Below are positions 4,605 through 30,091 of a stretch of DNA of 30,147 bases, one piece after another. The notes under the pieces were generated by a model. It saw only the letters and a program-made list of their open reading frames with translations. It was not told the DNA's origin and did no database searches. Position 1 is the stretch's first letter. Each line of letters opens with the position of its first letter. Source of the DNA: a virus; IMG/VR virus record IMGVR_UViG_3300032086_000348, positions 1 through 30,147 of that record; one strand, 5' to 3'. A program made the position numbers and the translations under genes.

Positions 4605-4985
4605 TCACTCCATATCAAAGACAGACTTGTAAGAGACTTTACCGCCTCTACTATAAGCAACATTACGCTTCATCTTTCGGGCTTCTGATCTACGCTGTTG
4701 TTCACTGCCTACACCGTATGCAAAACCAGCCCCAAAGTCTGGACGGTTTTTATTATTCTTTTTACTCTTTTCTGCTCCTGACTCAAGCGCCCCCTCTACA
4801 GCATCTTTTATGGCTCCTTCAGTATTACGAACAGTTTCACCAACCTTCCCCGGCATATTAGCGCCGATGCTTTGCCCTGTTGTTATATGAGAAACAAAGT
4901 TACCAACAGTATACGGGTTAGGGGTTACAACAGCACTAATCCCTGCAATAGCTGTTTCTAAATCTAAAATGTTTTTGTTAGCCAT
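4605..4985 (-). CDS. tandem paralog 3 of small tagged protein family, 126 aa
   Basis: The product begins MANKNILDLETAI, has a small-residue segment around TPNPYTVGNFVSHITTGQSI, a charged middle (GAEKSKKNNKNRP), and ends YSRGGKVSYKSVFDME. It shares its layout with the two genes immediately upstream: a short amphipathic start with a K-[ND]-I core, a proline-bearing small-residue block with a TGK/TGQ, then a charged linker and the R/KGG-x-[VI]-SYKS-[VI]-x-DME tail. No enzyme motif, signal peptide or clear membrane segment is seen. The ATG overlaps the previous stop (TAATG), with GGAG eight bases upstream. Function is unknown. Position after the giant virion protein suggests a minor virion or late accessory role (inference). 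Confidence 0.75.
   Translation of the reverse strand: MANKNILDLETAIAGISAVVTPNPYTVGNFVSHITTGQSIGANMPGKVGETVRNTEGAIKDAVEGALESGAEKSKKNNKNRPDFGAGFAYGVGSEQQRRSEARKMKRNVAYSRGGKVSYKSVFDME
4608..4611 (-). promoter_or_regulatory. Shine-Dalgarno GGAG inside the upstream gene's Asp-Met-Glu codons
   Basis: The last codons of the preceding gene (GAT ATG GAG TGA) supply GGAG five bases before the ATG at 4602. This site decides in favour of that ATG over the GTG at 4608. Confidence 0.7.
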
Positions 4986-5296
4986 TATCCTTTCTCCATA
5001 TCAAAGACAGACTTGTAAGAGACTCTACCGCCTTTAGCCACGGTCTTACGCTGGCGCATTTCTTGCTTTGCCATAGCCTGCTCCATCTCATTCATGGCTC
5101 TTACAGTAGGTGTAATTGTAACTTCGGGTGGAGTATCTTTATCTCGTCCCATCTCGTGCTGTAGTATATCCATACCATGACCAGCCAAGCCTTTACCTGT
5201 AGCTACTTGCAAACCTAAATCGACAACTCCTAAAGGTGTAGGGTTTCGTGCTACTCCAATAGCCTTTCCAAGATTCATAATATTTTTAAGTGCCAT
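4985..5296 (-). CDS. tandem paralog 2 of small tagged protein family, 103 aa
   Basis: The product begins MALKNIMNLGKAIGVA, continues with NPTPLGVVDLGLQVATGKGL, then a charged, methionine-rich helix (AMNEMEQAMAKQEMRQRK), and ends VAKGGRVSYKSVFDMEKG. The block PTPxG followed by ATGK aligns by eye with PTPAG and FTGK of the gene upstream, and the ten-residue SYKSVFDME tail is identical to that of the gene downstream. These genes therefore look like duplicates that diverged in the middle. The start overlaps the previous stop (TAATG). No catalytic motif or transmembrane segment is clear, and no function can be assigned. Confidence 0.75.
   Translation of the reverse strand: MALKNIMNLGKAIGVARNPTPLGVVDLGLQVATGKGLAGHGMDILQHEMGRDKDTPPEVTITPTVRAMNEMEQAMAKQEMRQRKTVAKGGRVSYKSVFDMEKG
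4994..4997 (-). promoter_or_regulatory. Shine-Dalgarno GGAG inside the DME-K-G tail codons
   Basis: The tail codons GAT ATG GAG AAA GGA TAA of the preceding gene place GGAG exactly eight bases before the next ATG (4985). Confidence 0.7.
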
Positions 5297-5628
5297 TATC
5301 CGTTCTCCATGTCTGTAATAGACTTATAAGAAATTAAACCACCCTTAGCATTCCTTCCGCGCATAATCTTTTTTTGCTGTGGATCACGGAAGAAACCGCC
5401 TTCTGAAATAACATCGCCCTTTTTATTGGGGCCAACATTACCTGTGCCTGTAGCTGGCCCTTTAATAGTTCCTGCAAGATGCTCTGGAATTGTTTTACCC
5501 GTAAAAGCTTTTGAGGCTAGGTTGGCTCCCGTATAAGCTATCCCTGCTGGAGTAGGCTTTATAGCTGTAGTAACCACACCAGCAATGGGGTTATTAGCTA
5601 AATCTTTTATATCTTTAAAGGATGGCAT
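5296..5628 (-). CDS. tandem paralog 1 of small tagged protein family, 110 aa
   Basis: The product begins MPSFKDIKDLANNPIAGVV, continues with KPTPAGIAYTGANLASKAF and TGKTIPEHLAG, then a glycine-rich linker (GPATGTGNVGPNKKG), a basic patch (QQKKIMRGR), and the tail NAKGGLISYKSITDMENG. It is the first of three adjacent genes with the same architecture and tail. Internal small-residue segments could associate with membranes weakly but fall short of a clear transmembrane helix. A reasonable purine-rich sequence (GGGAG in the upstream gene's last codons) precedes the ATG. Function is unknown. Late-operon position suggests a virion-associated or host-takeover protein. Confidence 0.72.
   Translation of the reverse strand: MPSFKDIKDLANNPIAGVVTTAIKPTPAGIAYTGANLASKAFTGKTIPEHLAGTIKGPATGTGNVGPNKKGDVISEGGFFRDPQQKKIMRGRNAKGGLISYKSITDMENG
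5305..5308 (-). promoter_or_regulatory. Shine-Dalgarno GGAG inside the DME-N-G tail codons
   Basis: The codons GAC ATG GAG AAC GGA TAA place GGAG exactly eight bases before the ATG at 5296, the same geometry as at the next junction. Confidence 0.7.
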
Positions 5629-19947: not shown

Positions 19948-20421
19948 TCATCCTCCAAAACTCTGTATAAAGCTAACGGTTGTCCATACAACCCCACCGG
20001 CTACCATTAGTCCTATAACAATGGCTGATACATCTAGCATTCTTCTTTGCCTGCGTCTTTGCTTGTAAATTATACGTTCTCTTTTAGCTCGTATGTCTCG
20101 ACGCATTTGCATCATTTCTTTATAAGTGTCTTTACCATAAGCCCAAGTAATTAATTCTCTTACTTGCTTTTCTTGTTCTTCTATTTTCTTTTTAGCAATA
20201 ACAGCATTAAGTGCTTGTTCCTCTACAGAGTTACCGTCAAACATCTTTTTAAATAACGGTGGGTTCTCTGCCTCTTTTTCAGCTTCTTTTATGTCAGACA
20301 CCAGCCCATACCAGTGTCCTAGCTTTTGAGCTACGTGTTCAATCTCTGCGCCTTTACTAACAAGGACTTGAATACCCTTGAACGTAGAGGACGCTATAGC
20401 TACTAAAGATACGGGGTCCAC
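19948..20421 (-). CDS. conserved phage protein with basic helix and C-terminal membrane segment, 157 aa
   Basis: The first half contains KLGHWYGLVSDIKEAEKEAE, followed by NPPLFKKMFDGNSVEEQALN, a block I recognise as recurring in marine phage genomes beside lysis genes, without assigned function. A long charged helix follows, becoming very basic (MRRDIRAKRERIIYKQRRRQ). Residues about 131-152 (VSAIVIGLMVAGGVVWTTVS) are a transmembrane segment, and the chain ends SFGG. The basic stretch just before the membrane segment predicts that the long N-terminal part stays in the cytoplasm. The start is GTG (four bases after the previous stop), with no strong binding site. It could work with the next coiled-coil membrane protein in lysis timing; this is context only. 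Confidence 0.72.
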   Translation of the reverse strand: MDPVSLVAIASSTFKGIQVLVSKGAEIEHVAQKLGHWYGLVSDIKEAEKEAENPPLFKKMFDGNSVEEQALNAVIAKKKIEEQEKQVRELITWAYGKDTYKEMMQMRRDIRAKRERIIYKQRRRQRRMLDVSAIVIGLMVAGGVVWTTVSFIQSFGG

Positions 20422-20424
20422 AGA

Positions 20425-20853
20425 TTACTCTGGCTTTGTAGGCCATGTGATAGTTCCGGGGAATCCTTCTTGCTGTGGTACATCTCGTAAAGCCTGCCTG
20501 TAGGTCGCCATATCTGCTGACATGGTTACATCAGACAACCCGTAGTGGTCTGTAGCCTTTAACAAACGATCTCTATGTGCGCGATTATTGGCGCTTGCTT
20601 CGTCTTCTGAAAGGTCTTGAACTTGCCACTGTTGTGTCCACACTCCATCAACATTTTGAACGCTTTGTGTAACTCGTTGACTTTTGTAGTCTATTGTTGG
20701 TGATGTAGTTTCCGTAACACGATGCACTCCGTAACTAGCTAAAGTAGCGTCAGGAATTGTTTGAGGGAAACTTGTTTGTGGATTTTCACGGCGTAGCTCT
20801 CCAATGTTGTATGGAAATTTAGCTACCGCACCGTTTGTGATTTTAACAAACAT
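20425..20853 (-). CDS. tail-fibre assembly / tail assembly chaperone-like protein, 142 aa
   Basis: The C-terminal part reads NNRAHRDRLLKATDHYGLSD, then YRQALRDVPQQEGFPGTITW and PTKPE. The pattern 'RDxLLxxTDxxxLSD ... YRQALRDxPxQxGFPxxIxWPxxP' is the widespread module found in phage tail-fibre assembly and tail-associated proteins. The N-terminal 60 residues (FVKITNGAVAKFPYNIGELR) resemble the small beta module that often precedes it. It follows a fibre gene directly, as such proteins usually do, and may help fold or attach that fibre. It could instead be a structural component, since the same module occurs in both. No membrane segment is present. Confidence 0.7.
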   Translation of the reverse strand: MFVKITNGAVAKFPYNIGELRRENPQTSFPQTIPDATLASYGVHRVTETTSPTIDYKSQRVTQSVQNVDGVWTQQWQVQDLSEDEASANNRAHRDRLLKATDHYGLSDVTMSADMATYRQALRDVPQQEGFPGTITWPTKPE

Positions 20854-20869
20854 AAATTATTCCTTTTAG

Positions 20870-22470
20870 TTAAAGATCAAAAGACCAAATAGCGGCAGTG
20901 CCGTTGTCAATAACATACATTTTTTTGCCGTTTGATTTAAAAAATACACCTTCAGGCACAAGAGTATAATCAGTAAGACTAAAATTTTGATTGTAAGAAG
21001 CGGTAGAAACATCCCATGCAGTGCTTAAATCATATTCAAAAACAGCATCATTTGTATAACCAGTAACATACATTTTTAATCCATCATCTCTAAAATAAAG
21101 GCCGCTTGGATTTGTTGCTTGGCTATTGACACTAAAATTTTGATTGTAAGAAGCAGTGGAAACATCCCATGCAGTGCTTAAATTGTATTCGTTTACATCA
21201 TCTCCGCTTCTACCAAGAACATACATTTTAGTGCCGTCTGACTTAAAAGAAATGGTCATTGGATTAGTTTCTTGAGTTGAAACAGAGAAAACTGTTGTAT
21301 GAGAAGCAGTGCTAATATTCCACGCAGTGCTTAAAGAGTATTCGTTTACCTCATCACCATTAAGGCCAACAATAAACATTTTTGTACCATCGGACTTAAA
21401 GAAAAGACCGGAAGGCTGGAGTTCTTGGGCTGAAATACTAAAACTTCTGGTGTAAGAAGCAGTAGTAAGATTCCATGCTGTACTCAAACCGTATTGAAGA
21501 ACAACATCACCAGTTGCATCCGTAACGTACAATTCAGTTCCATCTGGTTTAAAAAACAAATCAGTAGGGTTTACAGTTTGTGATGCAACGCTAAAATAAT
21601 TGGTTGTTGGCGCGGTAAAACTTGCTGTAGAAACATCCCATGCCGTACTTAAAGTAAATTTTGTAAATCCCCAATTTGATCCTCCAATAAACATTTCTGT
21701 ACCGTCAGACTTAAAATCAAGCCCTGTTGGGTTATTTTCTGCCTCCAATCCACTAAGATCCTTGTACTGAGAAAAAGAAGCTGTACTAATATTGTATGCC
21801 GTAGTTAAATCAAATTCATACACACGGGGGCCATAAGTACTATCAACAATAAACATTGATGTACCATCATCTTCAAATCGTAGACCCTTAAAGGAGTTTA
21901 TTGCTGGATTAACTACGCTTGTTGATCCTATATCAAGCAGTCTAGTATACGATGCAGTGCTAATATCCCATGCAGTGCTTAAACTCCATTGAGTAAGCCA
22001 ATCTAACGACCCACCATTAACAATGTAGACTTCAGTTCCGTCCGGTTTAAAAAAAAGTCCTCGTTCTGGGCTATGATTTACACCCGATACAGTAGTTAAA
22101 TTACCAAGATCTCTAGTATAAGAAGCAGTAGAAACATCCCATGCAGTGCTTAGTGTATATTGATAAAGTTTGTTATTTTGTAGGCCCGTAACATACATTT
22201 CAGTTCCGTCTGATTTAAAAAAAAGCGCCTGTGGATTATTGTCTTGTGTTGTAACCTGAAAGCCTTGATTGTATGTTGCTGTAGACAAATCATATGCTGT
22301 TGATAAATCGTATTCACGCACACTGTCAGGATTGGTATTGGTAATAAAATATATTTTAGTTCCATCAGGCTTCAAAAATATATTTTGATTTGAACCTTGT
22401 GGTTGCGTAAATTTAAAGTTTATTGGACTACCATTAAAAACAGCCGTAGAAATATCCCAAGCTATACCAC
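20870..22470 (-). repeat. ten tandem protein repeats of about 50-57 residues
   Basis: Each unit contains a DGT-x-[ML]-[YF] core and an LSTAW-[DN]-[VI]-STAS linker. The units are clear at protein level and also visible as recurring DNA such as 'gtagaaacatcccatgcagt' (minus-strand coding). Unit lengths vary through insertions between the linker and the DGT strand. Confidence 0.8.
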
Positions 22471-22522
22471 CACCAGCGTTACCAGCGGAGGCTTGAATTG
22501 CTTTTAAAGCTAACCTACTCAT
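20870..22522 (-). CDS. propeller-like repeat tail protein (10 repeats), about 550 aa
   Basis: The preferred start is the ATG at 22522, overlapping the previous stop (ATGA) and giving MSRLALKAIQASAGNAGGG. A TTG 33 bases earlier keeps the frame open but lies inside the conserved end of the upstream gene. The rest is ten repeats of about 50-57 residues. The consensus is F-[FKS]-[SP]-DGT-[KE]-MYV, then a hydrophobic turn, a YxLSTAW strand, and D-[VI]-STASY. This four-strand pattern resembles blades of beta-propellers such as YVTN/NHL types. The first unit starts AWDISTAVF and the last ends IWSFDL, so the ends could complete one blade ('velcro' closure). Position in a fibre cluster suggests a tail-tip or receptor-contact protein. 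The fold is inferred from repeats. Confidence 0.78.
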   Translation of the reverse strand: MSRLALKAIQASAGNAGGGIAWDISTAVFNGSPINFKFTQPQGSNQNIFLKPDGTKIYFITNTNPDSVREYDLSTAYDLSTATYNQGFQVTTQDNNPQALFFKSDGTEMYVTGLQNNKLYQYTLSTAWDVSTASYTRDLGNLTTVSGVNHSPERGLFFKPDGTEVYIVNGGSLDWLTQWSLSTAWDISTASYTRLLDIGSTSVVNPAINSFKGLRFEDDGTSMFIVDSTYGPRVYEFDLTTAYNISTASFSQYKDLSGLEAENNPTGLDFKSDGTEMFIGGSNWGFTKFTLSTAWDVSTASFTAPTTNYFSVASQTVNPTDLFFKPDGTELYVTDATGDVVLQYGLSTAWNLTTASYTRSFSISAQELQPSGLFFKSDGTKMFIVGLNGDEVNEYSLSTAWNISTASHTTVFSVSTQETNPMTISFKSDGTKMYVLGRSGDDVNEYNLSTAWDVSTASYNQNFSVNSQATNPSGLYFRDDGLKMYVTGYTNDAVFEYDLSTAWDVSTASYNQNFSLTDYTLVPEGVFFKSNGKKMYVIDNGTAAIWSFDL

Positions 22523-23004
22523 CCTAAAGCTTGCCCCGCTGTAAACCCGTACCAAGTTGTGCCGCCGTCATGGGTGATAAACACAAAGTAATCAACCGCT
22601 GATGCCGTAGCTGTCAACGTAGGCGCTGTAGCACTAGGCCAATCTACTGATGCAGGCCAAGTTACTGTATACCCAGAAGCACTAGCATCCTGCACAAGTT
22701 TCAACGTAAACGCAGATACCTTGCCGCTAGACGCTGGGTTGCTAAACGTAAACGTAGTATTCTCAGTCAGTGTATGACTAAAGTTTGTACCATCACGGAG
22801 GTTTACAGTCGTAGCATTACTACTAGATGTAACTGCTGTGTACTCTTCTGAAACGCCGTTATCAAACGTCACCACACCATTAGCATCTGCTGTTAAACTC
22901 TTAGATGCTTCGCTAGTTCCTAAAGTAGTTATATCTAAATAATTAAGTTCTGTAGCTGTGGAAGTTACGCCACCTAAGTCTGCAATTGTTCTAGCATTGC
23001 TCAT
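22519..23004 (-). CDS. short tail-fibre-like protein, 161 aa
   Basis: The product begins MSNARTIADLGGVTSTATEL with NYLDI, reusing the 'TSTAxELNxLDG' motif seen several times in the 674-residue fibre encoded upstream. The rest is strand-rich and Thr/Ser-rich (EEYTAVTSSSNATTVNLRDG, TENTTFTFSNPASSGKVSAF) and ends with DYFVFITHDGGTTWYGFTAG, a recurrent ending of phage fibre proteins. A good GGAG lies nine bases before the ATG. It is probably a trimeric fibre or tip protein that attaches to or extends another fibre. The trimeric state is general knowledge of such proteins, not seen here. Confidence 0.7.
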   Translation of the reverse strand: MSNARTIADLGGVTSTATELNYLDITTLGTSEASKSLTADANGVVTFDNGVSEEYTAVTSSSNATTVNLRDGTNFSHTLTENTTFTFSNPASSGKVSAFTLKLVQDASASGYTVTWPASVDWPSATAPTLTATASAVDYFVFITHDGGTTWYGFTAGQALG

Positions 23005-23027: not shown

Positions 23028-24002
23028 TTAAAATGTAATGGTGCCAGAGCCTGTAAATTTATAAATATTATAACTACCATCGGTGCTTGTAGTTGGTGAG
23101 CCTGTTGTAGCTGTTGCTGTTTCTAAAGTTCTTATAATTACAACTCCTGAACCTCCTGCTCCTCCAACGAAGCTTGTGTGCGACTCTGCGCCACCTCCAC
23201 CGCCTCCTAAATTAGCAGTTCCATTTACACCGTTTGAGCTATTACCGCCAGCACCACCTCCACCAGAGCCTCCAGCGGCCCCGCCGGTTTGGTAAGCACC
23301 GCCTCCGCCACCACCACCGTATGTAACACTAGAGCCTGTTATAGAATTAGCAGTACCGTTTCCTCCTGCTCCAGCCGCTGAAGAAGTGCCATCTTGTCCT
23401 GCGGCCCCAGCACCTCCACCGCCTCCAGAGCCATAATTTGGTGCAGAATTATTTCCATCACCGCCATCATTGCCTTCAGATGGACTGTATCCCCCTGCGT
23501 TTCCACTACCCGCAATGTTTCCTAGTCTTGCGCCACCACCTCCTGATCCGCCGTCTCTTCCGTATCCAGTACCAGTGCCGGTGCTGTTGGTAACGCTAAC
23601 TGAATAGTTTCCTCCTCCACCTCCGCCAGATGACGTTACTGTAGTAATTCCTGTTCCAGATATAGACGAATCACTACCAGTTGAACCTGCTTGTCCTGTA
23701 GCTGTCTGACTTGCTCCAGCACCTACAGTAATTGTGTAAACATTTCCTGATGTTAAGCTAAAACTAGAAGCAGTTCTGTAGCCGCCTGCACCACCACCAG
23801 CCCCATGATAAGTACCACCACCTCCGCCGCCACCGCCAGCAAGAACTAAATATTCAATATCAACACTAACAGCAACTCCGGGCCATTTTTGTTTTCCTAC
23901 AAATGTATTAGCTTCTTGAACGCTCCAAACACCACTTGCCGCGCTACTTGTTGGCGTTACTTTAGTTGAAGAAATAATATTGCCTTGATGACGGCTAGAC
24001 AT
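23028..24002 (-). CDS. glycine-rich tail adhesin-like protein A, 324 aa
   Basis: The N-terminus includes SGVWSVQEANTFVGKQKWPG, then the strand DIEYLVLAGGGGGGGG, followed by about 230 residues dominated by glycine runs. Short hydrophobic strands interrupt the runs (GGYRTASSFSLTSGNVYTIT, NAGGYSPSEGNDGG, SSVTYGGGGGGG), and the protein ends GGSGVVIIRT and DGSYNIYKFTGSGTITF. This is the layout of glycine-rich fibre proteins. In T-even phages the gp38 adhesin presents glycine-rich loops to receptors on packed polyglycine helices, and a comparable receptor role is a reasonable guess. It is clearly paralogous to the 310-residue protein encoded just upstream. The ATG overlaps the previous gene's last codons by eight bases. 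Confidence 0.75.
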   Translation of the reverse strand: MSSRHQGNIISSTKVTPTSSAASGVWSVQEANTFVGKQKWPGVAVSVDIEYLVLAGGGGGGGGTYHGAGGGAGGYRTASSFSLTSGNVYTITVGAGASQTATGQAGSTGSDSSISGTGITTVTSSGGGGGGNYSVSVTNSTGTGTGYGRDGGSGGGGARLGNIAGSGNAGGYSPSEGNDGGDGNNSAPNYGSGGGGGAGAAGQDGTSSAAGAGGNGTANSITGSSVTYGGGGGGGAYQTGGAAGGSGGGGAGGNSSNGVNGTANLGGGGGGAESHTSFVGGAGGSGVVIIRTLETATATTGSPTTSTDGSYNIYKFTGSGTITF

Positions 24003-24357
24003 CTACTTGATCCCAGCTAGTGGTTGATTCATTCCACTCATACATATTACCATCATCAGGTCTTGTAGTAGGGGCTTCCCATTGACACGTTGTTTCATTT
24101 AAAACCCAGCTTGCGTATGGCTTAGGCGGTATAAAAGCATCACGACCACTATCGTATGTAAACCCAATGCCTGCAAAATTCTTTCGTATATTGTTGTTGT
24201 AGCTAGTCTGTTTCCATGTGCCACCAAACAATGTGTTACAAAAAGATATTCCAAGAGACTCTTGTTCAACACCATCACCATCAAGAAGTTCTGGATTAGC
24301 TACAACAATGACTCTTAAAACTTCATTATTTTCATTTAATTCTGCAAAATGTGCCAT
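23995..24357 (-). CDS. conserved tail-associated small protein (MAHFAELNENN family), 120 aa
   Basis: The product starts MAHFAELNENNEVLRVIVVA and contains GISFCNTLFGGTWKQTSYNN, then RKNFAGIGFTYDSGRDAFI and PPKPYASWVLNETTCQWEAP. I recognise this as a short protein found repeatedly in marine phages, especially cyanophages, near tail-fibre genes, with no proven function. It is strand-rich and aromatic-rich, has two cysteines, and lacks a signal peptide or membrane segment. It sits exactly between the two glycine-rich paralogs, overlapping both neighbours (TAATG upstream, eight bases downstream), which hints that it works with those adhesins as a cap, chaperone or tip. Confidence 0.78.
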   Translation of the reverse strand: MAHFAELNENNEVLRVIVVANPELLDGDGVEQESLGISFCNTLFGGTWKQTSYNNNIRKNFAGIGFTYDSGRDAFIPPKPYASWVLNETTCQWEAPTTRPDDGNMYEWNESTTSWDQVDV

Positions 24358-25289
24358 TAGAACGTAATACTCCCTGAACCCGTAAATGTATAAATAGTGT
24401 AACTGCCGTCTGCGGTTACGGTTGGCGAACCTGTTGTAGCTGTAGCTGTATTTAGCGTTCTGATAATTACAACGCCTGAACCGCCTGTTCCGCCAGTTGT
24501 GTTGCTTGGGTAGCTTCCGCCACCACCGCCACCGCCAGTGTTAGCCGTGCCTGTTCCAGCGGCAGAAGAACCATCGCTTCCAGCACCACCGCCTCCAGAA
24601 CCGCCTGTTCCCGGCGTTGAGGTTCCTGCATCAGGCCAACAACCACCGCCTCCACCACCCGCCCGTGTCACGGATGAGCCAGTTATTGAAGATGCTGAAC
24701 CATCACCACCATTGCCACCGTTCGTGCCATTAACTGCATTGCCTCCAGCGCTACCGGCTCCACCGCCACTACCGCCCGGACCGTTCTTAGTTACGCCTAA
24801 GCCTCCGTCATTTCCTTCTGAGGGTGTGTAGCCGCCAGCGTTACCAGAACCCACTGTAGCGGCACCATCAGACGCTCCACCTCCAGAGCCTCCGTCACCG
24901 CCATCCTCTTCTGTGCCGCCACTGTATGAACCACCGCCACCACCGCCGCTAGAAGACACAGAATTAAACGAGCTATCGGAGCCGTTTGAGCCTCTAGTGC
25001 TTGTGTTTACTCCGCCTGCACCGCCTGCCCCTACTGTAACAGTGTAAGTAACGCCTGATGTAAGCGTTTGGTTAGTAAACTCACGATAACCACCAGCCCC
25101 TGCTCCAGCGGCAATTTGAGTGCCGCCTCCGCCCCCGCCTGCAATAATTAGGTAATCTGCAATTGGCACACCTCCGGGCCACCCAGTTTTATTTTGAACG
25201 TGGGTAGCTAAAGCCCAAATACCACTAAAAACCTTTGAGGCTTCTTCTAAACCGTTAAAGCCAATAAAGCCGCCTTTATCTTTAGCCAC
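24357..25289 (-). CDS. glycine-rich tail adhesin-like protein B, 310 aa
   Basis: The architecture matches the other glycine-rich protein: an N-terminal SGIWALATHVQNKTGWPGG block, the strand IADYLIIAGGGGGG, a long glycine-rich body with GGYREFTNQTLTSGVTYTVT, NAGGYTPSEGNDGG and SITGSSVTRAGGGGGG, and the end GGSGVVIIRT then DGSYTIYTFTGSGSITF. The ends and the NAGGY[ST]PSEGNDGG landmark are nearly identical to the paralog, while the glycine-rich middles differ in composition. The start is GTG with AGGAG six bases upstream. It is probably a receptor-contacting or fibre-tip component; the role is inferred from composition and location. Confidence 0.75.
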   Translation of the reverse strand: MAKDKGGFIGFNGLEEASKVFSGIWALATHVQNKTGWPGGVPIADYLIIAGGGGGGTQIAAGAGAGGYREFTNQTLTSGVTYTVTVGAGGAGGVNTSTRGSNGSDSSFNSVSSSGGGGGGSYSGGTEEDGGDGGSGGGASDGAATVGSGNAGGYTPSEGNDGGLGVTKNGPGGSGGGAGSAGGNAVNGTNGGNGGDGSASSITGSSVTRAGGGGGGCWPDAGTSTPGTGGSGGGGAGSDGSSAAGTGTANTGGGGGGGSYPSNTTGGTGGSGVVIIRTLNTATATTGSPTVTADGSYTIYTFTGSGSITF

Positions 25290-27713: not shown

Positions 27714-29321
27714 TTATCTCCTACCTGATGGCATATAGTCTATATAAAAACCATTAACTGCATACGGAAAATTCTTATCTTCTGTTTTAAGTCGTAGACT
27801 AACTGTAGTTCCACTACCCTGCACAATTGTTCTTACCATTGGATCGTTTGTACCTCCAAAGGTTGCAGTGCCAAACAAAGCTTCTCCAAAAATTGCGGGT
27901 AATGGTATACCAGTAATTTCTATATCTGGGGGTTGTAAAAGATCGCTAGATTTATAATCATATCGAAGTCTTAGTGTAGGGGTTATTTCCCCTTCAGGAG
28001 AAAAAGAAGTTCTAACATATTTTAAAGTTTTTCTAGTTCCAATATCTCCAAAATCTAAATCGGCTGTTTCATAAATAGCTGTGATGTTTTGTTCAGCACC
28101 TCCACTTAAAAAAGAAGTGCCTGTATCATGATTATAAATATATCCGTCTTTATCGCCGTGATAAACTTTTTCAAGACCGTTATAATCAATTGTAGAACTA
28201 AGTCCAAAAGCCTGAATGCCTTGCGTTTCAGACCATTCAAAACCTTGGCCTGTAAAGGTTCCAATAATTCCTAAAGCATTTGCAATGGTTTCATTAGGCC
28301 CTGAATAAAAAAGACGATACTGAGATTTTTCGCGTATGACACAACTATCAATAACATAATCTGTTATATTTTGGTTTACTTCTCTAATAACACTTTGTAT
28401 TTGTCTAGAAATAGAGCTTAACTCTGTATCACCAATCCTTGCTGTACCCGCAACAGTACGAATACCATCAGGCGCAAGAAAAACTAGATCACCTCCAATT
28501 TCTTGAATACTATATCCACTAAGACAACCTACGTTTTCAGCAATAGGATCTATACGAACAGCTTGTGAGTCATTAATATTTATAAGTTTATGAATACTAT
28601 TTCTTGTAAAAACAATTAAATCTGTTCTAAAACCTTTAATCCCTTGTATTTGATCTGAAATTGATATAGCACCAGCACCAGCACCAGTAAAATTAGAGGG
28701 GTCGTTATATACACTATAATAAACTGTGTTTAAGTTATTAGCTACGCCTGCCACCACTAAATGATGGTCATGAACTGTAATATATTTAACTGAGTTTGTG
28801 CCAGCAACAGCTATTTCTCCTGCAAAAAAAGTACGAGTATTTAAATCTCCAGTACCTTCCATTCTAAAAGAATATAATTTATTAGCGCCATCTGCTATAA
28901 TTACTTCCCCATAGTTATAGGCAGGCCCTTCAAAAAGAGCAAATTGGCACTGGTCTTGGCCTGTGCGCGTTAAAGTTGATCGACCTGTAAAAGTTGTATA
29001 GTTATCTCCACTACCAGCCACAGAACTACGATTTATCTGTAGCCAAGTAGCTCCATCATTACTAAAGAAAATATCTGTGCCTGAACAAATAATAACGCCA
29101 TCAGCATATGCAAAGGTTCCTAAAACTCTGTTCGTAGTATTAGGTCTTACGGCTGATGCACCACCAAAAGGTGTAAAGCCATTAATCCGTCGATAGCCAC
29201 CATCTGGATCTACTTCAAAGTTAGAAAGTCGTACAGCAAAGCCGGGATTGCCTAACAACTCCAAAGAGTTTAGGTTAGTGTTTAATCCTCCTTTTGCCGC
29301 AAAACCATAAGCCTGAGACAT
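27714..29321 (-). CDS. tail hub / nozzle-like protein, 535 aa
   Basis: The product starts MSQAYGFAAKGGLNTNLNSL, followed by ELLGNPGFAVRLSNFEVDPD and GGYRRINGFTPFGG. The pattern 'GGL-x-N ... L-x-PGxAxxLxNFxxxxxGGYRRxxGF' opens the family of podovirus tail nozzle or DNA-stabilisation proteins (functionally like P22 gp10 or T7 tail tubular protein B). The remainder is a series of strand-rich units (VLGTFAYADGVIICSGTDIF, DHHLVVAGVANNLNTVYYSV) consistent with a propeller. It would form the channel below the adaptor ring. The start overlaps the adaptor gene's stop. The match is from memory of sequence style, so the general role is more certain than the family name. Confidence 0.75.
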   Translation of the reverse strand: MSQAYGFAAKGGLNTNLNSLELLGNPGFAVRLSNFEVDPDGGYRRINGFTPFGGASAVRPNTTNRVLGTFAYADGVIICSGTDIFFSNDGATWLQINRSSVAGSGDNYTTFTGRSTLTRTGQDQCQFALFEGPAYNYGEVIIADGANKLYSFRMEGTGDLNTRTFFAGEIAVAGTNSVKYITVHDHHLVVAGVANNLNTVYYSVYNDPSNFTGAGAGAISISDQIQGIKGFRTDLIVFTRNSIHKLININDSQAVRIDPIAENVGCLSGYSIQEIGGDLVFLAPDGIRTVAGTARIGDTELSSISRQIQSVIREVNQNITDYVIDSCVIREKSQYRLFYSGPNETIANALGIIGTFTGQGFEWSETQGIQAFGLSSTIDYNGLEKVYHGDKDGYIYNHDTGTSFLSGGAEQNITAIYETADLDFGDIGTRKTLKYVRTSFSPEGEITPTLRLRYDYKSSDLLQPPDIEITGIPLPAIFGEALFGTATFGGTNDPMVRTIVQGSGTTVSLRLKTEDKNFPYAVNGFYIDYMPSGRR

Positions 29322-30091
29322 TAAACAAGCCTCATTCGGTCATCTTTAATGTACTTAGGTACTGGAAACATTAAAGCATTTTTCATAAGCCGTAAGCCTC
29401 TGCGATATTCTTCTAAAGCTAATGCGGCTGGCTGAATGTTTTCTTTAAACTGATGCACGTAGTATCTAGCTCGTGCAAGCAACACAGTTTTATAAACATC
29501 TGGAAAAACAATTGTATCGCCATATGCTGATAATTCGGTAGCTTGATTAAACGCAAAGAAATGAATACGATATACTTTGTCAGGTATTGGACTCAATCCA
29601 AAGTTACGTCCATCACTACTACGAAAGACTCTGCGAGGCTCGCCGCCATTAGCATCTCCAGCATCGTCTTGATTTTCTTTAGCACGATGATAGTCTTTCC
29701 ATTCTTCTAAGGTTATAAATTTTAAGTTCTGACTTACGTAAGGGGCTGTTTCGCCTGATACACCCACTGTAGTCATGTAAAAGTCATCCCAATCTACATA
29801 GCCATAGTCATCTACCAAAGATGAACTAGCGGCTTTAAGTTCGTACCAACGCTGATTAGCGACAGTCTCTACAGTTACATTACCGTATAGCGGATCTGTA
29901 GAACCACTTTCGCCTACAGCAAGAAAAGGCCACTGAGGTTCTTCAAGAACAATATCAAGGTATGCGCGATTGACACAATCTTTGGCGTGTGCTTGAATAC
30001 CTACAGCAGATGCAAAATTACTAGAGGTCAATACAACCTCATTCATTTCTCGCAGTAGTTCGTTAGTAAGATCTAGGTATGTAGTCGCCAT
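29321..30091 (-). CDS. head-tail adaptor-like protein, 256 aa
   Basis: The product begins MATTYLDLTNELLREMNEVV and contains AKDCVNRAYLDIVLEEPQWP, then a strand-rich middle with WYELKAAS, FITLEEWKDYHRAKEN and FGLSPIPDKVYRIHFFAF, and a helical end (DVYKTVLLARARYYVHQFKE, AALALEEYRRGLRLM). The helical start followed by 'A-x-DxVNxAxxxIxxxxxxWPF' and the final helices match the adaptor ring proteins of marine podoviruses (in the style of the SU10 adaptor; analogous to T7 gp11). It would sit between portal and nozzle, and the nozzle-like gene immediately follows, as expected. The ATG shares bases with the previous stop (TAATG). Confidence 0.78.
   Translation of the reverse strand: MATTYLDLTNELLREMNEVVLTSSNFASAVGIQAHAKDCVNRAYLDIVLEEPQWPFLAVGESGSTDPLYGNVTVETVANQRWYELKAASSSLVDDYGYVDWDDFYMTTVGVSGETAPYVSQNLKFITLEEWKDYHRAKENQDDAGDANGGEPRRVFRSSDGRNFGLSPIPDKVYRIHFFAFNQATELSAYGDTIVFPDVYKTVLLARARYYVHQFKENIQPAALALEEYRRGLRLMKNALMFPVPKYIKDDRMRLV

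Follow-up and report, generated by a model that had tools for sequence, protein, structure and literature searches.

Phage adhesins that come with a dedicated folding partner are a known kind of system. According to the available sections of the respective reports, chaperone-dependent fibres exist in marine phages such as V22 (gp26-gp27; PMC7289586) and A5 (PMC10579305), and in V22 the fibre gene is followed by a gene that is needed for a working fibre and whose product is outside the final complex. In Pam3 the fibre gp24 and its chaperone gp25 (PDB 7YPX; PMC9608196) are encoded in this order with a gap of 11 nucleotides (nt). Here we describe a related arrangement in the virus record IMGVR_UViG_3300032086_000348, which was analysed over its whole 30,147 nt (the window). 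Two glycine-rich proteins, A and B, are encoded there on either side of the 120-residue MAHFAELNE protein (MAH). With a probability of roughly 0.6, A and B are receptor-binding adhesins of a tailed phage and MAH is their folding helper; MAH is probably a new family of adhesin chaperones and probably no tail part. The original prediction had taken MAH for a conserved small tail protein, a role that gene context and fold do not favour, as both point to a chaperone, which would be outside virions.

In many aquatic phages the receptor-binding genes carry no annotation; with a small, well-conserved marker just after the adhesin gene, they could be located on a large scale. The adhesin-MAH pair recurs in many aquatic viruses, and if our interpretation is true MAH marks receptor-binding genes in viruses that are otherwise unannotated. 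Cultured carriers make the prediction testable, for example HTVC025P (gp43-gp44; Pelagibacter HTCC1062) and CRP-143 (gp39-gp40). In the open-licence literature no paper was found on the MAH family or on a permuted glycine-rich domain, which does not prove their absence. Within the literature searched, three things look new, namely a chaperone role for the MAH family, the linkage of this family and the permuted layout described below.

The Pam3 pair resembles the locus in the fold of the fibre, in the order of fibre and chaperone and, weakly, in the fold of the N-terminal domain of MAH. However, gp24 has a long N-terminal helical docking domain that is missing in A, where a closing hairpin lies at the C-terminus, and where gp25 has helices the C-terminal part of MAH is small and beta; the sequences of MAH and gp25 are not similar. 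The glycine motifs of Pam3 equivalent to those of A have dihedral angles near beta-sheet (PMC9608196), and the available text of PMC13243795 describes glycine-rich brush or polyglycine domains from mycobacteriophages and others. Relatives of V22 gp27 carry DUF4376 according to the accessible part of PMC7289586, whereas no member of the MAH family gave a Pfam match to DUF4376. S16 gp38, with which the Pam3 paper compares gp24, also has glycine-rich receptor-binding fingers, but it sits on gp37 of the long tail fibre (PMC9608196, accessible sections) and no gene of that kind precedes A and B. The best structural match of A is the Bxb1 tail tip (PDB 9D93, chain Qb), although this is, by its PDB title, a tail-tip protein of a long-tailed mycobacteriophage. 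The extracellular tumour necrosis factor (TNF)-like/glycine-rich region of ALK and LTK shares the overall arrangement of A (Z 5.0-5.4 over 112-125 residues). These are, however, animal receptors with 15-20% identity, and the unrelated glucosaminidase 6jow_A also reaches Z 5.1, so that this level is weak. In the accessible text of two pelagiphage papers (PMC9599517, PMC7029224) the word glycine is absent and chaperone appears in the context of curli.

Predicted folds of A and MAH

Both glycine-rich proteins pass the cut-off of the Gly_rich_2 family (PF21722, 24.3 bits), A with 76.1 bits and B with 61.6 bits; Pam3 gp24 lies just below it with 23.8 bits. A and B are paralogues by sequence, with 48% identity end to end (157/329 in BLASTP, E 4e-25) and 78% in the last 139 nt of the DNA (108/139, E 3e-28), and they are the only two places of this type in the record. 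The common start, centre and end of the two proteins that had been proposed were found, with the SG[VI]W motif beginning around residue 22 and not at the first residue.

AlphaFold predictions were made of A and MAH, each as a monomer. The model of A (alignment of 51 sequences) has a mean predicted local distance difference test score (pLDDT) of 90.3 and a predicted template modelling score of 0.85. Its top match in the PDB is the Bxb1 tail tip 9d93_Qb (Z 14.6, root-mean-square deviation (rmsd) 3.3, 178 residues, 32% identity), and its matches to the chain 7ypx_A of gp24 (Z 14.0, rmsd 2.8, 172 residues, 27% identity) and a second one to the Pam3 fibre (Z 13.6) give it the TNF-like and glycine-rich fold of the Pam3 gp24-like fibre. 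These matches to tail-fibre and tail-tip proteins agree with the earlier assignment of A as an adhesin. By sequence, the profile A2 reached the Pam3 chains among PDB sequences only at E 0.12-0.13, below an unrelated glycine-rich protein, and tblastn of A against named phages gave no matches, perhaps owing to low-complexity masking. The profile of PHROG 863, which we take to be the T4/S16-type gp38 family, matched Pam3 gp24 (E 9.1e-18) and B (E 0.0097) and gave no match to A at E 0.01.

The MAH model (alignment of 82 sequences) has a pLDDT of 94.8. Among the 115 PDB chains aligned to it only 7ypx_a reaches Z>=2 (Z 4.7, rmsd 2.9, 55 residues), where residues 1-78 of the model are matched to residues 3-57 of the chain. 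We take 7ypx_a to be the chaperone gp25 because its 162 residues equal the length of gp25 and it belongs to the same PDB entry as the fibre. A and MAH, neighbours in the window, match two partner chains of one solved complex, MAH weakly. The match of MAH is weak alone; together with the linkage described below we found it persuasive for a chaperone.

Several results weigh against this interpretation. In Foldseek the match to 7ypx_a ranks third with E 2.0 and a probability of 0.33, and its Z of 4.7 is below the caution level of 8 of the alignment tool. No sequence similarity was found between MAH and gp25 (hhalign probability 0.1%, with 210 of 1603 scored shuffles as good or better). In addition, the helical trimerisation domain of gp25 is missing in MAH, whose C-terminal part is beta in the model. 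With no helical C-terminal domain in its model, MAH is not classed with the Tfa proteins but is taken to act in a similar way. A gp25 profile could not be built, as no relative was found by the gp25 scan of viral contigs and tblastn of gp25 returned Pam3 alone. The N-terminal domain of MAH seems to occur alone too, as the 63-residue PHROG 14370, which also matched in 78 of the 82 MAH members, covers residues 1-78 of the protein in the window. BFVD also listed a tail assembly chaperone (rank 32, E 0.12) and a DUF4376 protein (rank 46, E 0.52), neither of them strong enough to be used.

We propose that A and B each consist of a short docking tether, a TNF-like beta-sandwich with glycine-rich fingers and a C-terminal closing hairpin, and that they form trimers, as gp24 would suggest, each docked by its own tether. 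The N-terminal domain of MAH would bind the sandwich side of the nascent adhesin, keep the glycine fingers in register during trimer formation and be released after folding. One MAH would serve both A and B, and the finger tips of the adhesins would bind the receptor.

In the model of A the tether, about the first 40 residues, has low confidence and short helical turns only. The tethers of A and B are just 22-24% identical at the protein level, yet they are kept within each line (75% among A orthologues, 69% among B orthologues), which suggests separate docking sites. The tether motif SG[VI]W...WP was found in 48 of 253 glycine-rich open reading frames (ORFs) and in 15 of 1473 others, compared with 2 and 20 in shuffled sequences. 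Outside the glycine-rich proteins it is thus at chance level, and only the matches near residue 20 look real. An N-terminal segment of this kind also opens non-glycine-rich proteins in four virus loci (L022:422-2440, L032:5644-7662, L109:2879-3727 and L119:6287-10384), of which that of L022 is a DUF7483 protein, that of L032 has the same length and motif, and that of L119 is annotated in its record as a ConA-like lectin. The segment may be a shared docking element.

Linkage of MAH to glycine-rich genes

Virus loci from the MAH scan were the best 80 among the matches listed, near-identical loci being kept, and 3 of them had too little upstream sequence. In 67 of the remaining 77 the direct upstream neighbour of MAH, within 200 nt, is a glycine-rich ORF, which overlaps MAH in 32 loci, lies at 0-20 nt in 28 and further away in 7. 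The same was found in 22 of 29 places in bacterial and archaeal assemblies, a set that consists mostly of metagenome bins, may hold phage contigs and includes another 5 of 34 MAH ORFs with too little upstream sequence. In named phages 17 of 24 places are linked (23 loci from 41 matching records, the remainder of which looked like near copies or partial records). Pooled at 90% identity, 114 of 134 representatives are linked, a count that includes loci found via A and is biased upward. As background, the same measure classes 218 of 1464 ORFs of at least 100 residues as glycine-rich; the loci counted were enriched for such ORFs from the outset.

The places without a glycine-rich upstream neighbour by the measures used (10/77, 7/29 and 7/24) also weigh against a folding helper of the adhesins. 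In the named phages these are L119, L123, L127, L131, L133, L136 and L137. The nearest-ORF rule undercounts, as it missed glycine-rich ORFs that start the upstream region at a distance of 39 nt in L133 and 19 nt in L094:4126. In L127, L131, L136 and L137 such an ORF lies about 2.8 kb upstream of MAH. In these last four loci, which are from cyanophages, the gene directly before MAH is ferrochelatase-like or unnamed instead of an adhesin, and Pfam gives no enzyme or fibre family for MAH. This would fit a protein that travels with adhesins on other grounds, perhaps an enzyme or late-gene regulator, and never contacts them. We regard this as very unlikely, since unrelated types of phage repeat the direct order of adhesin and MAH, with the two genes mostly overlapping or at most 20 nt apart, and since the two proteins covary. 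In loci that hold more than one pair, the comparison was positive in 17 of 23 cases (p 0.035 by the sign test and 0.0011 by Wilcoxon; comparisons from the same locus are not independent). Over 112 pairs the distances of MAH correlate with those of the adhesin tail (r 0.42), the first loops (0.38) and the rest (0.33 and 0.23), with shared ancestry included in these values. The adhesin tail covaries with the N-terminal domain of MAH with r 0.41 and with its C-terminal part with 0.21, barely over the null maximum of 0.20.

In cyanophages and some pelagiphages MAH adjoins genes for 2OG-Fe(II) oxygenases, sometimes for ferrochelatase (L127, L128, L129, L131, L132, L135 and L137). In Pelagibacter phage Greip the ORF upstream of MAH (L115:2-421) belongs to gp59, which is annotated as a DNA stabilization protein; this C-terminal piece is glycine-rich and ends in the tail motif.

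The number of adhesins per MAH is not fixed. There is one MAH for two adhesins in the window, with A before and B after it, and one behind five tandem glycine-rich ORFs in L047, while L079, L089 and L112 have three adhesin-MAH pairs each; a helper suits this better than a fixed part. MAH as a structural virion protein, either capping the tip of the adhesin or connecting one adhesin with another, would be in line with its conservation (84% protein identity across six relatives, ratio of non-synonymous to synonymous substitution rates (dN/dS) 0.127) and with its tight linkage to adhesin genes. Transient or lasting caps are also discussed for fibre chaperones of Alteromonas phages in the accessible sections of PMC10579305. 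However, its sole structural match is a chaperone chain, and one MAH for up to five adhesin ORFs is unlike a one-to-one part, so we consider a structural role unlikely.

Hairpin position, loop evolution and recombination

The motif of the closing hairpin of A occurs at two positions in the family. A hidden Markov model (HMM) of the last 38 residues, built from C-terminal tails, found the motif in 166 of 218 glycine-rich ORFs (near duplicates included), at the C-terminus in 140, at the N-terminus ahead of the core in 25, in neither position in one and in both in none. Among the end-complete ORFs 45 of 209 had no hairpin match; some of these look like either form by eye. That the hairpin is at one end or the other and never at both suggests a circular permutation, in which it would occupy the same place in space. 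Alternatively, the two positions could hold different hairpins of similar sequence without permutation. The HMM is less sensitive to N-terminal copies, whose scores of about 10-34 bits are lower, and it could overlook a weak second copy; the start of the Pfam match does not split the forms (residues 4-15 in C-terminal forms and Pam3, 1-3 in two N-terminal forms), and the permutation is drawn from sequence and not from superposition. Still, one HMM finds both positions, and the N-terminal forms CRP-143 gp39 and phiPsal1 end no more than 2 residues past the Pfam match, whereas A, B and HTVC025P gp43 extend 33-35 residues further, a stretch that holds the hairpin. As the hairpin of A is also confidently folded as part of its model, separate hairpins seem to us rather doubtful, and a circular permutation is preferred.

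The dN/dS values were calculated for six A and five B orthologues, with core glycines defined on the sequence of the window, which leans to conservation. For the non-glycine core positions they are 0.346 in A and 0.371 in B, the latter without a strand class, so that its loop class includes strands. The frame classes are lower, with 0.074 (A) and 0.144 (B) for tails, 0.083 and 0.054 for core glycines, 0.126 and 0.242 for tethers and 0.160 for the strands of A. Loops thus evolve 1.5-7 times faster than frames, which upholds the idea of variable loops on conserved frames. All classes are below 1 (purifying), and no sign of positive selection was seen at this resolution.

A is a mosaic. Its nt 1-450 are nearer to L005 (0.882, compared with 0.793 to L006) and nt 451-933 nearer to L006 (0.853 and 0.725 to L005), while MAH (0.937 vs 0.771) and the core of B (0.915 vs 0.686) are nearer to L005. 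The best breakpoint, at nt 441-459 (codons 147-153, window 24831-24849), is at the start of the centre motif that had been singled out as shared by A and B, and its gain of 27.2 was reached by none of 500 shuffles, the highest of which gave 7.4. Fisher's test of core and tail of A against the rest gave p 2.7e-38, a value inflated by linked sites. The pattern holds among the window, L005 and L006, any of which may be the recombinant.

Recombination between the two copies, a search for which had also been suggested, has to be divided by age. Current gene conversion was rejected, as the nt identity of A and B is equal within the same and between different genomes (0.517/0.517 in the middle, 0.730/0.727 in the tail); the duplication is old and without ongoing conversion. 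An older exchange of the C-terminal tail is possible. In the window B is A-like in the tail (0.80 nt identity, compared with 0.40-0.63 elsewhere), unlike the B of L006 (0.61). At fourfold sites A agrees with the B of the window, L005 and L038 at 0.463 (tail) and at 0.310 (core), compared with 0.284 for the B of L006 and L009 (pairs not independent). In L007:7241-7786 the B gene has an in-frame stop and may be broken or a sequencing error.

Finger-set exchange at the centre motif combined with the permuted fold would show adhesin change with one compatible helper. We see an even chance that phages of SAR11, cyanobacteria, Roseobacter-type bacteria, Methylophilales and Pontimonas share the adhesin-MAH pair as a mobile cassette for recognition. 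In it MAH would be an undescribed chaperone family dedicated to circularly permuted TNF-like/glycine-rich adhesins, and the centre and tail frames would act as joints for exchanging finger sets.

Gene order and neighbouring genes

The ORFs of A, MAH and B were confirmed at the positions given in Table 1, expressed in the order A, MAH, B. As predicted, MAH lies exactly between the two adhesins, with 1 nt in common with A and 8 nt with B, and these overlapping ends make translational coupling likely. On the minus strand the preceding order is tail adaptor, a 535-residue protein, a 674-residue fibre-like protein and a 124-residue protein. The SU10_adaptor match suggests a short-tailed phage.

Table 1. 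Features of the adhesin locus and its surroundings in the window
Feature	Position	Strand	Evidence
Tail adaptor, SU10_adaptor	29321-30091	-	Pfam E 1.5e-11
A, 310-residue glycine-rich adhesin-like protein, GTG start, Gly_rich_2	24357-25289	-	PF21722 E 5.1e-21
A tether, residues 1-42, SGIW...WP, presumed docking segment	25164-25289	-	low model confidence to about residue 40
A core, residues 43-268, TNF-like sandwich and glycine-rich fingers	24486-25163	-	predicted fold
A centre motif NAGGYTPSEGNDGG, residues 150-163	24801-24842	-	breakpoint interval overlaps motif start
A tail, residues 269-310, last strand and closing hairpin ...TTGSPT...FTGSGSITF	24360-24485	-	pLDDT 97-98 at end; motif census
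MAH, 120 residues, predicted adhesin chaperone, PHROG 7759 (function unknown)	23995-24357	-	phrog_7759 E 4.6e-48, linkage, model
MAH N-terminal domain, residues 1-78	24124-24357	-	matched to 7ypx_a 3-57 and 63-residue PHROG 14370
MAH C-terminal part, residues 79-120, small beta region rich in tryptophan, fold unassigned	23998-24123	-	model secondary structure; invariant W84, W108, W115
B, 324-residue glycine-rich adhesin-like protein, Gly_rich_2	23028-24002	-	PF21722 E 1.5e-16; 48% identical to A
Beta-propeller-like repeat protein, candidate adhesin	20870-22555	-	propeller-type Pfam/NCBIfam matches; swapped in L003
142-residue Phage_tail_APC protein	20425-20853	-	Pfam PF16778 E 8.6e-20

The pair of adhesins had been thought to suit rapid host-range change. 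Over 7.7 kb the virus locus L003 agrees with the window at 99.5% identity, and its A, MAH and B proteins are 100% identical to those of the window. Identity drops in a 161-residue gene and is only 55% for the propeller (L003:10735-11660), over 253 aligned residues up to the contig end. On this one pair of phages the switching candidate adhesin is the propeller and not A or B, which speaks against rapid host-range change by the A/B pair.

In L005, L006, L009 and L038 B is directly followed by a relative of window 19948-20421, and the block 20425-23004 of the window, with the 161-residue gene, the propeller and the PF16778 protein, is extra. The PF16778 protein, for which no sequence homology to MAH was found, is likely a second fibre chaperone, and the block is perhaps a second adhesin-plus-chaperone cassette.

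For 27714-29321 the best PHROG label is amidase (lysis; E 7.5e-85), yet the gene adjoins the tail adaptor; the label may be wrong and the product a tail structural protein. Three successive small ORFs on the minus strand (4605-4985, 4985-5296 and 5296-5628) share the terminal motif GG-x-[VI]-SYKS-[VI]-x-DME.

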